Part shown: positions 1,090-5,095 of the stretch, in pieces
How positions within the stretch are numbered: position 1 is the stretch's first letter
Layout: the number at the start of each line of letters is the position of its first letter
DNA from: an uncultured Bacteroidota bacterium
GTDB taxonomy: Bacteria > Bacteroidota > Bacteroidia > Flavobacteriales > BACL11
Direction of reading: 5' to 3'
DNA: 48,004 nt
Assembly (NCBI GenBank): GCA_902579065.1
Contig: CACHFI010000004.1
Location: forward strand, 1 to 48,004
Position numbers and translations under genes: made by a program
Notes under the pieces: model-generated
What the model saw: the letters and a program-made list of their open reading frames with translations, nothing else
Told to the model about the DNA's origin: nothing
The model's database searches: none

Positions 1090-2094
1090 TTAATTTTTTG
1101 CCTTTTCTAAAATAAAGGAAAATGTTGATCCTATATCTTGAGTGCTTCTCACATTTATAGTTTGTTGATGAGCTTCGATTATATGCTTAACAATTGCTAA
1201 TCCTAAACCAGTTCCCCCAATTTCTCTTGATCTATTTTTATCTACTCTATAAAATCTTTCAAATAATCTTTCAAGAGCTTCTTCACTAATTCCGATACCA
1301 TCATCAGAAACTTCTATCAACATTTTATCAGACATATCAAAAAGCCTGACATCAGTTTTCCCATTTTCTTTTCCATATTTAATAGAATTACTAATCAGAT
1401 TCATAAATACTTGCTGGATTTTATTTCTATCAGCATAAATAATTTCAGAATTAGAATTATTATTAAGTACTAATGAGATATTTCTTAAATTTGATTTCAT
1501 TTCTAATTGATCAAAAACTTCATTAATAAGGTTACAAATATTAAAATTCTCATAATCCAATTCGTCAACTTCTGTCTCTAGTCTTGAAATGACTTCCAAA
1601 TCATCAACAATATTTATCATTCTTTCAACACTTACATTTGCTCTTTTTAGATATTTTAAATTAATATTTTCATCTTTTAAACCTCCATCAATTAACGTTT
1701 GAATATATCCTTGAATATTAAATATTGGAGTCTTTAACTCATGAGATACATTTCCAATAAACTCTCTTCTGAAATTCTCATTTTTTTTCATTTCTAAAAG
1801 TTCTTCTTCTTTTTGGTTAGCCCAATCTTCCGCCTCTATATCAGCATTTTCCAGATTTAAATCAGAAATATTAGACGTCCCTTTAAACTTATATATGTTT
1901 TTGTAAATAATTTGGATTTTTTCATAAAACTGTTTTTTTAAAATAAAATATAATAAAAACATAAAAAATATTAATAAGATAAAGGCCAATAAGTAATCGT
2001 TAAAATAAGTGTTAACAATAAAGAAAATGCAGATTAATAGTGATGTTATTAAACAAATGAAAAATGTAAATTTAGCAGGTGTATTTAATTTCAT
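1090..2094 (-). CDS. phoR: PhoR-like sensor histidine kinase
   Basis: A 334-residue membrane histidine kinase that would autophosphorylate and pass phosphate to the adjacent regulator. Two membrane segments (about 8-29 and 33-52) are joined by only a few residues, so there is essentially no periplasmic sensor domain, as in the PhoR family. The dimerisation/phosphoacceptor box is FIGNVSHELKTP, with His118. It is followed by the N box (MNLISNSIKYG), the G1 box (SDDGIGIS) and the F/G2 region (RFYRVDKN, GGTGLGLAIV). The start codon shares one base with the stop of the regulator gene, so the two are translationally coupled. The assignment as PhoR rests on architecture and the neighbouring permease; signal specificity is not proven. 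Confidence 0.85.
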   Translation of the reverse strand: MKLNTPAKFTFFICLITSLLICIFFIVNTYFNDYLLAFILLIFFMFLLYFILKKQFYEKIQIIYKNIYKFKGTSNISDLNLENADIEAEDWANQKEEELLEMKKNENFRREFIGNVSHELKTPIFNIQGYIQTLIDGGLKDENINLKYLKRANVSVERMINIVDDLEVISRLETEVDELDYENFNICNLINEVFDQLEMKSNLRNISLVLNNNSNSEIIYADRNKIQQVFMNLISNSIKYGKENGKTDVRLFDMSDKMLIEVSDDGIGISEEALERLFERFYRVDKNRSREIGGTGLGLAIVKHIIEAHQQTINVRSTQDIGSTFSFILEKAKN

Positions 2095-2747
2095 TATAAA
2101 TCAAATTTATATCCAATTCCTTTAATTGTTTTAATATGTTTATTTTTTAATTTTTCTTTTATTCGTTTAATATTCATATTAATAAACTTACTGTCTCTTG
2201 GTTCTTCCCTCCACAATTTATAAATAATATCTTCATCTGAAAAGATTTTTCCTGGAATTGACATTAATAAATGTAATAAATTAAATTCATCGTTTCTGAG
2301 AATAATATTTTTTCCATTATAAAATAGTTTTTTATGAACTAGATCCAGATATATATCACCAATATTTATTACATCTTGTTTAATTTTACTTTTTAACAAA
2401 AAATTAACTCTGGAAATTAATAATTTTGGATTAATTGGTTTAAAAATATAGTCATCTGCTCCAGCAGTATATCCTGCACTTTCTGAATAATCCTCAGATC
2501 TTGCAGAAAGAAATGTGACTATACTATTATCTAATTCTTTTATTTCTCTAATTTCTTTGCATACTTCAAAACCATCTTTTTCTGGCATCATAACATCAAG
2601 AATAATTAGGTTGGGCTTATGTTTTTTTGCAAGAATTAGCCCTTGACCTCCATTATTTGCAGTAATAACGGTAAATCCTTCTTTTCTTAATGCATATGAT
2701 AAGAATTCTAAAATATCTAATTCATCATCTACAATTAATATTTTCAT
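2094..2747 (-). CDS. phoB: PhoB-like response regulator (OmpR/PhoB family)
   Basis: A 217-residue two-domain regulator. The receiver domain (1 to about 120) has the acidic pair in VDDE, phosphoacceptor Asp51 in LIILDVMMPEKDGF, and the conserved Lys in IFKPINP. The C-terminal winged helix (about 125-217) has the OmpR-type core NDEFNLLHLLM and ends in IKTIKGIGYKFDL, the usual beta-hairpin of this family. It is the first gene of the phoB-phoR operon and reads away from the PiT-like permease. The spacer between them holds two sets of three TTAA words at 11-bp steps. OmpR-family dimers bind tandem repeats with this spacing, so autoregulation and control of the permease are likely. I found no clear TAnnTTTG box for this gene. 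Confidence 0.88.
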   Translation of the reverse strand: MKILIVDDELDILEFLSYALRKEGFTVITANNGGQGLILAKKHKPNLIILDVMMPEKDGFEVCKEIREIKELDNSIVTFLSARSEDYSESAGYTAGADDYIFKPINPKLLISRVNFLLKSKIKQDVINIGDIYLDLVHKKLFYNGKNIILRNDEFNLLHLLMSIPGKIFSDEDIIYKLWREEPRDSKFINMNIKRIKEKLKNKHIKTIKGIGYKFDL

Positions 2748-2757
2748 TTGAGTTAAA

Positions 2758-2785
2758 TTAACTTTTAATTAACATACGATTAAAC
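2758..2785 (+). promoter_or_regulatory. Candidate Pho box, phoB-proximal: three TTAA words 11 bp apart
   Basis: TTAAC at 2758, TTAAC at 2769 and TTAAA(C) at 2780 begin exactly 11 bp apart. The array lies 11-38 bp upstream of the phoB start codon. Direct repeats of TTAAC-like words at 11-bp period are the known form of cyanobacterial and Firmicute PhoB/PhoP-type sites. Assignment here is inference from spacing and context. Confidence 0.5.
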
Positions 2786-2855
2786 TTAAATATATATTAA
2801 AATAAGTATGTAAAATTAAATTTGTTAAGTTTTAAAAATAATAAACTCTTTTTTA

Positions 2856-2888
2856 TTTTTTTAATATTTTTTTAATAGTTTTTTAATA
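2856..2888 (+). promoter_or_regulatory. Candidate Pho box of the PiT-like gene: 11-bp unit repeated three times
   Basis: The unit TTTTTTTAATA (2856-2866) is repeated exactly at 2867-2877 and once more with a single change (GTTTTTTAATA) at 2878-2888. TTAATA therefore recurs at 2861, 2872 and 2883. If TAACTTTA at 2900-2907 is the -7 box, the array is centred near -40, where an OmpR-family activator would contact RNA polymerase. T-rich sequence is common here, but an exact 11-bp period is not expected from a simple T run. Confidence 0.55.
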
Positions 2889-2942
2889 CATATAATTGTT
2901 AACTTTAGACCCTATTTACTTAAAAAATAAAAGTATAATTAC

Positions 2943-4085
2943 ATGAAAAAAATTTTTCGAGCTTTTGGGTATCCTGATGTAGTTTGGTTTCCAAAGAGTG
3001 AGCATTCATTTTTAACATTTATTTGTATTTCCTTTATTTTAGTAATGTTTATTACTCCTTATCCACATCTCGCTATGTGGGCTGGTTTTTTGTTTGCTGC
3101 TTATGCTGCTATAGCTAACGATAGTATTCAAACAATTGGAACCTTTATTGCTTCAAATCAAGACAAAAAGTGGTGGGTTCTATGGATTTTTATTGGAGGT
3201 ATTTTCTTTTTTACTATGCTTTATAGTTGGATTACTCTTGATGGAGATGTTAGTCATGGAAGATTAACCTCTAAAGGATTTGAAATTGCCCCTACTGAGT
3301 TTCATTTTCTTCAGGTTGCTGCACCTATTTTCTTACTTATTCTTACTAGGTTAAGAATGCCTGTTTCCACTACTTTTATTTTATTAACTTCTTTTGCTGC
3401 AACTCCGGCAGCTGTAGGTGGTGTTCTTGCAAAGAGTATGAGTGGCTATATTTTGTCTTTTTTATTAGGCCTTATATTTTTTCTAATTGTTGCTAAATCT
3501 GCAAAAAAATATTTTGTTGGAAAAGCCAAGTTTGGTTGGACTATTGCTCAATGGATTACCTCTGGAACATTATGGTCTGTTTGGTTAATGCAAGATGCTG
3601 CAAATATTGCAGTTTATTTACCTAGAAGTTTACATATATTTGAATTTATTGCTTTTACTTCAATAGTAATAATTGGTTTGGGGTTATTATTATTTTATAA
3701 AGGAGGTAGAATTCAAAAAATTGTAACTGAAAAATCTGTTGTTACTGACGTTCGCTTTGCTACATTAATAGATTTTATTTATTGCATAATTCTATTTTAT
3801 TTTAAGTTACACAGTAAAGTACCAATGAGTACTACTTGGGTATTTATTGGTTTATTAGCAGGAAGAGAGTTAGGAATGGCACTTATGAATACTGGCGATA
3901 ATTCTATTTCCAAAAGTTTAAAATTAGGTTTAAAAGATATGACATTCGCGCTTTTAGGTCTAATTATTTCTATTGCTATTGCTATAGGTGTAAACGATGA
4001 GCTCTCATTTAATTCTATGATTACAACAATGCCAGAAGAATTTTTGGCTGGATTAGTGAAATTTTTCTCTAGTATTGGATTATAA
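2943..4085 (+). CDS. PiT-like (PHO4 family) inorganic phosphate permease, divergent
   Basis: A 380-residue polytopic membrane protein with about nine to ten hydrophobic segments. It shows the internal duplication of PiT permeases. IANDSIQTIGT (about 57-67) and QDAANIAVYLP (about 217-227) sit where the family's GANDVANA motifs occur. RMPVSTTF (about 138-145) and KVPMSTTW (about 292-299) correspond to the P-[VM]-S-T-T motifs. The motifs are degenerate, so this is a divergent subgroup, and a substrate other than phosphate (such as sulfate) cannot be excluded. It is divergent from phoB across a spacer with Pho-box-like repeats and is followed 26 bp later by a porin-like gene. Together these suggest outer- and inner-membrane steps of phosphate uptake. 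No Pst ABC genes are present in the window. Confidence 0.72.
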   Translation: MKKIFRAFGYPDVVWFPKSEHSFLTFICISFILVMFITPYPHLAMWAGFLFAAYAAIANDSIQTIGTFIASNQDKKWWVLWIFIGGIFFFTMLYSWITLDGDVSHGRLTSKGFEIAPTEFHFLQVAAPIFLLILTRLRMPVSTTFILLTSFAATPAAVGGVLAKSMSGYILSFLLGLIFFLIVAKSAKKYFVGKAKFGWTIAQWITSGTLWSVWLMQDAANIAVYLPRSLHIFEFIAFTSIVIIGLGLLLFYKGGRIQKIVTEKSVVTDVRFATLIDFIYCIILFYFKLHSKVPMSTTWVFIGLLAGRELGMALMNTGDNSISKSLKLGLKDMTFALLGLIISIAIAIGVNDELSFNSMITTMPEEFLAGLVKFFSSIGL

Positions 4086-4111: not shown

Positions 4112-5095
4112 ATGAAAAATTATATTTTAATACTTATAGTATCTATCATAACTTTTGATAGTTATTCTCAGGGAACTACATATGCTAAAATATTTTCTGA
4201 TTTTAATTATAGTCTTGCAGACGTATCAAATCCATACAAAGAGTTTAAAGTTTCAAATGCAATTTTCGGACATAAGCATACTCTTAATAATAAATTTTCT
4301 GCAAATATAACATTCGATGTTGGTAACAATAGTTCTGGAAGTTCATATACTGCTTTTTTAAAATTAGCCTCATTAAAATGGAGTCCAACTGATAGAGTTT
4401 TTGTAGATTTTGGTATCATAAAAGCAAGTAATTTTACTTTTATGGAAAATTCCTGGGGTAAAAGATATATATACAAATCTTTTCAAGATGTAAATAAATG
4501 GTCTCACTTTTCTGATGCTGGAGTCGGTTTGACATATATTTTATCAGACAACTTAATAATAGATGCTCAAATTCTTAATGGAGATGGTTATAAAAACTTA
4601 CAAGGATCTGATGCATACATGAGAGGAGGTGCTGGAATTATCTTTAAGTCAGATGATATATCATTTAGAGTAGCTAGAGATGTAATGCCTAGAACTATGT
4701 ACAGTGATGATTATGAGTCACAATATATAAATACTTTGGCAGTAGCATACAGTGGATCAAACATGACTCTTGGTGGTGAATACAACCTAAGAGAAAACAC
4801 TTCTAATGTTGTTGACAATACTAGTTCTGCTTTTTCAGTATATGGAAATTTAGATATTGGAAATGATGTTTCTGTTTTTGGAAGATATGACATGTCTGAT
4901 TCTGAAGATGCTAATGAAAATCAATGGAATATTGAAAATGAAGGAGAACTAACTATTTTTGGCATTGAAAAGCAAATGACAAAAGGAGTTAAGGTAGCTG
5001 TAAATGTTAAATCTTTTAAGGCTGCAACATTAGATGGTGAAGAAGAAGCTGAGGCTAACAATATGCTATATTTAAACCTTGAATATAAATTCTAA
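4112..5095 (+). CDS. Porin-like outer-membrane beta-barrel protein
   Basis: A 327-residue protein with an N-terminal signal peptide (MKNYILILIVSIITFDSYSQ, cleavage probably after SYS). The rest is amphipathic beta-strands with an aromatic C-terminal strand (MLYLNLEYKF), the usual barrel ending. The strand layout and length resemble small porins of the phosphate-selective porin O/P type, but I see no diagnostic substrate motif. It follows the PiT-like permease by 26 bp, has its own TAAATTTG box and is closed by a strong terminator. An anion channel feeding phosphate to the permease is a reasonable inference. The two ORFs on the opposite strand inside it are shadows. Confidence 0.65.
   Translation: MKNYILILIVSIITFDSYSQGTTYAKIFSDFNYSLADVSNPYKEFKVSNAIFGHKHTLNNKFSANITFDVGNNSSGSSYTAFLKLASLKWSPTDRVFVDFGIIKASNFTFMENSWGKRYIYKSFQDVNKWSHFSDAGVGLTYILSDNLIIDAQILNGDGYKNLQGSDAYMRGGAGIIFKSDDISFRVARDVMPRTMYSDDYESQYINTLAVAYSGSNMTLGGEYNLRENTSNVVDNTSSAFSVYGNLDIGNDVSVFGRYDMSDSEDANENQWNIENEGELTIFGIEKQMTKGVKVAVNVKSFKAATLDGEEEAEANNMLYLNLEYKF

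Follow-up and report, generated by a model that had tools for sequence, protein, structure and literature searches.

A probable PhoB-activated promoter, separate from an 11-bp tandem array, in the phoB-permease spacer of a marine flavobacterium

Introduction

The PhoP boxes of Bacillus subtilis are made of TTAACA-like repeats, with the same word and period as the promoter described here. The Pho boxes of cyanobacterial SphR consist of three or more CTTAACCT repeats with a 3-bp linker, and the E. coli Pho box consists of 8-bp direct repeats with 3-bp linkers (PMC1906773). A paper on the Pho regulon of Flavobacterium describes the regulon but gives no binding site, and the terms "Pho box" and "motif" appear nowhere in its main text (PMC8115612). 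The sigma-A -7 box of flavobacteria is TAnnTTTG, at -12 to -5 (PMC9723704).

The DNA analyzed here, a 48,004-bp stretch of a contig from an uncultured member of the Flavobacteriales (lineage BACL11), is referred to below as the window. In the spacer between its phoB-like and permease genes (Table 1), a first-pass annotation had noticed a three-copy 11-bp array and proposed that it could be a flavobacterial Pho box. Part of that proposal stands: the spacer upstream of the PiT-fold permease does contain TTAAYA-like direct repeats at 11-bp steps. However, the conserved box is P1, which lies about 100 bp upstream of the array, and not the array itself.

P1 resembles the E. coli Pho box in combining a regulator of the OmpR/PhoB family with 11-bp direct repeats upstream of a -10/-7 element. 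It differs in its word, which is TTAACA-like instead of CTGT-type, in its partner, the Bacteroidetes -7 box TAnnTTTG, and in the distance of about 20 bp from the fourth half-site to that box. The word of the SphR boxes (CTTAACA) is nearly identical to that of P1, and both have an 11-bp period; this likeness covers word and period, whereas phylum and sigma contacts are different.

Results

Genes flanking the spacer

Table 1. Coordinates of the features discussed, in the window unless a relative is named.
Feature	Position	Strand	Description	Basis
PhoR/PnpS-like sensor kinase	1090-2094	-		Pfam and NCBIfam profiles
PhoB-like OmpR-family response regulator	2094-2747	-	divergent from permease	Pfam Response_reg and Trans_reg_C
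phoB-permease spacer	2748-2942		between leftward PhoB-like regulator plus kinase and rightward permease	
Pho box P1	2758-2796	+	half-sites 2758 TTAACT, 2769 TTAACA, 2780 TTAAAC, weak fourth 2791 TATATA	
-7 box of P1	2817-2824	+	TAAATTTG; exactly 59 bp after start of first half-site; predicted start about 2829	
Array	2856-2888	+	TTTTTTTAATA 2856-2866, TTTTTTTAATA 2867-2877, GTTTTTTAATA 2878-2888	sequence, TRF, shuffles
TATAATTG	2891-2898	+	possible relic of permease-proximal P2 -7 box	
PiT-fold permease	2943-4085	+	380 aa, distant from Pfam PHO4	AlphaFold2 model, Foldseek
Putative outer-membrane porin	4112-5095	+	downstream of permease	by-eye likeness to L091 porin
Small ORF (examples in relatives)	L028:2544-2633, L029:3545-3628, L031:3757-3840, L041:3891-3974		34 further loci	

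The flanking genes are those named in the first-pass annotation, a PhoB-like regulator divergent from a PiT-like permease, the former by profiles and the latter by a fold match to 6L85. The best NCBIfam profile of the regulator is TIGR02154 (PhoB), with a score below the curated cut-off. The permease has no meaningful Pfam match, and none to PHO4, the PiT family, even at E<=10. A profile search retrieved no solved relative, and the family lies outside Pfam PHO4 and NCBIfam. Its AlphaFold2 model is of moderate quality (pLDDT 78.8). The top Foldseek matches of this model are chains B and A of the PiT transporter 6L85 (probability 1.00; TM 0.45 and 0.42), which alone reaches 1.00, the other matches listed having probabilities of at most 0.33. 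Judged from the model, the name PiT-like is right at the level of fold. The link of the permease to phosphate would come from its context, namely the Pho promoter and the adjoining phoBR genes.

Permease matches in L078, L064, L066, and L076 span more than 380 codons of DNA (for example 4001-5485 in L078), which suggests an extra inserted segment. The putative porin gene of the window has itself no Pfam match; the L091 porin matches BBP2 and, weakly, Porin_O_P, and adjoins the same composite Pho site as the one described below.

A promoter design conserved in relatives

Spacers of relatives were collected through the neighborhood of the permease and then aligned. In the great majority of them, TTAACA half-sites at 11-bp steps stand upstream of the permease and are followed, as a rule exactly 59 bp from the beginning of half-site 1, by TAnnTTTG or a one-base variant of it. 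The spacers align on TTAACA-N5-TTAACA-N5-(T)TAAxx ... TAnnTTTG. A weight matrix made from 28 sites, all from genomes other than that of the window, reads TTAACAATT.cTTAACATta...TAA..tttaatTAAc ... TAtaTTTG and contains four half-sites, at 0, 11, 22, and 33. At these sites the final G of the -7 box is invariant (28/28). In half-sites 1 and 2, 55 of the 56 bases at position 5 are C, a count that is partly biased because many matrix sites came from a search allowing <=1 mismatch; the trend is the same in the orthologous spacers gathered by way of the permease.

Scanning 52 genomes of the family for TTAACA-N5-TTAACA-N42-TAnnTTTG with <=1 mismatch gave 23 sites in 20 genomes versus a single control match. 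Sites away from the permease stand upstream of pstS-like genes, which encode periplasmic binding proteins with a PBP_like_2 domain (L093, L094, L100, and L108), and, in L091, upstream of a porin gene (weak Porin_O_P match) that follows pstB and phoU.

The window contains its own copy of this promoter, at the position orthologous to the box of relatives. P1 has 11-bp direct repeats of the relatives' word and their fixed distance to the -7 box, and the motif is the one found at phosphate genes of the clade. It is the single match with <=1 mismatch to the composite pattern in the genome of the window; at 3 mismatches the matches are noise (11 versus 15 in the control). With the matrix that excludes the window, no position on either strand of the 48 kb outscores the P1 box (17.1 bits versus 8.7 for the runner-up), and the full promoter reaches 25.7 bits versus 9.5.

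Across the order, the motif was found in 44 of 248 genomes versus one control match. It was rejected as an order-wide Pho marker, many of the sites outside the family standing upstream of DUF1573-like genes. Since TTAACA repeats at 11 bp also occur there, the motif by itself does not identify a PhoB site, and the assignment of the promoter to the Pho system rests on gene context. Perhaps the DUF1573-type sites belong to a different OmpR-type regulon in which word and period are the same.

Two further observations concern these arrangements. In other Flavobacteriales families (L140-L148, L156, L157, L159, and L160), the composite stands upstream of DUF1573-like genes, named by eye, with the site at locus position about 1500, and several such sites are divergent from a histidine-kinase-like gene. 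In some relatives of the window, a further half-site array in the same direction, which we call P0 (tandem Pho promoters), is located 315-326 bp before the permease (L036 and L037) or 277 bp before it (L028); P0 arrays are close to phoB in some relatives.

The tandem array

The three-copy array is real and was correctly described as two exact copies and one variant, head to tail. It is the top-scoring tandem repeat of the window (TRF: period 11, 3.2 copies, score 63) and the sole 33-bp self-match with <=1 mismatch in the 48 kb at any period from 5 to 15. Each copy contains an exact TTAATA (at 2861, 2872, and 2883), which gives the words the 11-bp period of a Pho box. No other exact run of three TTAAYA words at 11-bp steps occurs in the 1.09-Mb genome, in which the 22-mer of the array is also unique. 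A period-11 array of such quality appeared in 0 of 500 dinucleotide shuffles of the spacer, and three TTAAYA words at 11-bp steps in 2 of 20,000, figures that overstate the evidence for three selected binding words because slippage would make three copies one event. If the unit arose by slippage, the three words are a single event and not three independent matches.

Conservation of the 11-bp period in relatives had been named among the checks. The period is kept there, but the array itself was absent from all orthologous phoB-permease spacers of the relatives compared. Its scores with the matrix are -0.4 bits for the box and -29.2 bits for the full promoter, versus 17.1 bits for the P1 box. 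All three of its words carry T at position 5, where relatives have the nearly invariant C. The register is also different. Relative to TAACTTTA (2900) the words lie at -39/-28/-17, and relative to TATAATTG (2891) at -30/-19/-8, versus the expected -59/-48/-37/-26; no TAnnTTTG -7 box was found at 59, 48, 37, or 26 bp from the array words. TAACTTTA (2900-2907), previously suggested as the -7 box, ends in A and lacks the invariant G. Nor would the array occupy the place of an activator upstream of a polymerase contact, as had been supposed: it extends from about +28 to +60 of the predicted start, within the predicted 5' leader of the permease transcript. The array was therefore rejected as the main Pho box on grounds of conservation, matrix score, register, and the invariant C and G.

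A role of the array on the minus strand, for phoB, was set aside as well: its half-sites would then face the wrong way, and -7 boxes on the minus strand match 5/6 at best. Similarity between the leader of the window and those of relatives was undetectable, and the array was rejected as a relic of the small ORF described below or of the relatives' leader, because alignments were no better than those of shuffles. An Rfam search of the window for structured RNA gave no match, and no terminator was found in the phoB-permease spacer.

A small ORF in relatives

Between P1 and the permease, 38 loci carry an ORF of 25-33 codons that begins with ATG, and the array occupies the place where relatives encode this small protein. 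Single-base third-position differences are synonymous in 2631 versus 320 cases (pairwise counts from pairs that are not independent), and this synonymous excess indicates that the ORF is coding. The product has one hydrophobic segment, predicted as a single helix, and the core DLSxxxYLxIMxxVFxIAL; one Tyr is invariant and one Ser nearly so. It is unannotated, with no Pfam or NCBIfam family match. All 15 further genomes of the family that were checked and have a close permease contain the small ORF. None was found in the genome of the window, and no relic was detectable in 2825-2942.

In L031, L032, L034, L063, and L076, the gap after the small ORF is longer and contains a second promoter, P2. 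By eye, P2 is preceded by a terminator-like hairpin and a T-run in L032, L034, and L063.

Discussion

On the sequence comparisons presented here, we consider it probable that the spacer is a PhoB-activated promoter of conserved design and that the array results from lineage-specific slippage in its leader, with no role as a Pho box. When phosphate is scarce, PhoB-P would occupy 2758-2796 and bring sigma-A polymerase to the -7 box at 2817-2824. Transcription would start at about 2829 and reach the permease after roughly 114 nt of AT-rich leader. Once the small ORF had been lost, the leader DNA would have been released from coding constraint, and one T-rich 11-mer may then have expanded by slippage into the array. 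Such an array most likely has no function as a Pho box. Several points weigh against this interpretation. It is a striking coincidence that TTAATA occurs three times with the right period in this very spacer. Some relatives have a permease-proximal second Pho promoter near the position of the array, partly with TTAATA (L031 and L034). Finally, the C count of the matrix is biased, and the 11-bp TTAACA motif is shared with DUF1573-type sites.

The alternative that survives best, although we regard it as unlikely, is that the array is a second, degenerate Pho box (P2) that acts beside P1 and drives the permease from TATAATTG (2891) or TAACTTTA (2900). In the five genomes with P2, this promoter has a TAnnATTG box, located 27-38 bp ahead of the permease, and half-sites of the TTAACA type at -37/-26. 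The location of the array suits such a promoter, TATAATTG is similar to the -7 boxes of P2, some P2 boxes have TTAATA at single positions, and the array itself is beyond chance. However, by a rough estimate, chance alone would give about one TAnnATTG word per four spacers of such composition, and the array is in the wrong register for a promoter whose spacing is strict elsewhere. The P2 boxes of four of the five relatives score 12-16 bits, versus -0.4 for the array, and the closest relative by identity, L028 (89%), has no P2. Resolution of the permease tree around the window is poor, and the tree does not settle the window's place relative to the genomes with P2.

Phased A-tracts curve DNA, and the T-tracts at 2849-2884 (T6, T7, T7, T6) might modulate the promoter or the passage of polymerase in this way, with no specific binding of PhoB. 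We consider this very improbable. The tracts do have an 11-bp spacing, and their phased-tract vector was matched by 22 of 500 spacer shuffles, but phasing is stronger in 24 other tiles of the window. The predicted start, moreover, lies upstream of the array, which none of the relatives carries. It is just as improbable that the array is an assembly or sequencing error in a metagenome-assembled contig whose correct sequence would include the small ORF: the assembly consists of 71 contigs and is 61.6% complete, the repeat is homopolymer-rich, and the ORF is otherwise general among the family genomes checked, but P1 and the permease start are intact and the distance from the P1 -7 box to the permease ATG is natural (126 bp versus 132-141 in L028, L029, and L041).

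Returning to the reading of P1 as the Pho promoter, the small protein downstream of it in relatives has a known parallel. MgtS of E. coli is a 31-aa membrane protein that acts on the PiT transporter PitA (reviewed in PMC10710835). Like MgtS, the small protein would be a one-helix membrane protein tied to a PiT-family transporter, but here the link consists of position and co-occurrence, and the window lacks the protein. As a tentative idea, which we hold to be less likely than its opposite, this protein could, in this clade of marine Flavobacteriales, be Pho-induced and serve as a dedicated partner or regulator of the permease, an independent counterpart of MgtS-PitA. The lineage of the window would then have dispensed with it, and the T-tract array would fill its place.

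This study illustrates that a repeat may be conspicuous, and adjoin the expected gene, without being the regulatory site. The array itself is of modest interest. Somewhat greater is the interest of the promoter definition and of the small protein. The former provides a group of marine flavobacteria with a testable description of a Pho promoter in terms of its word, its period, and the spacing to the -7 box. The latter is a conserved small membrane protein, so far unannotated, that is linked to a phosphate permease, and it is a more interesting by-product of the analysis than the array with which it began.
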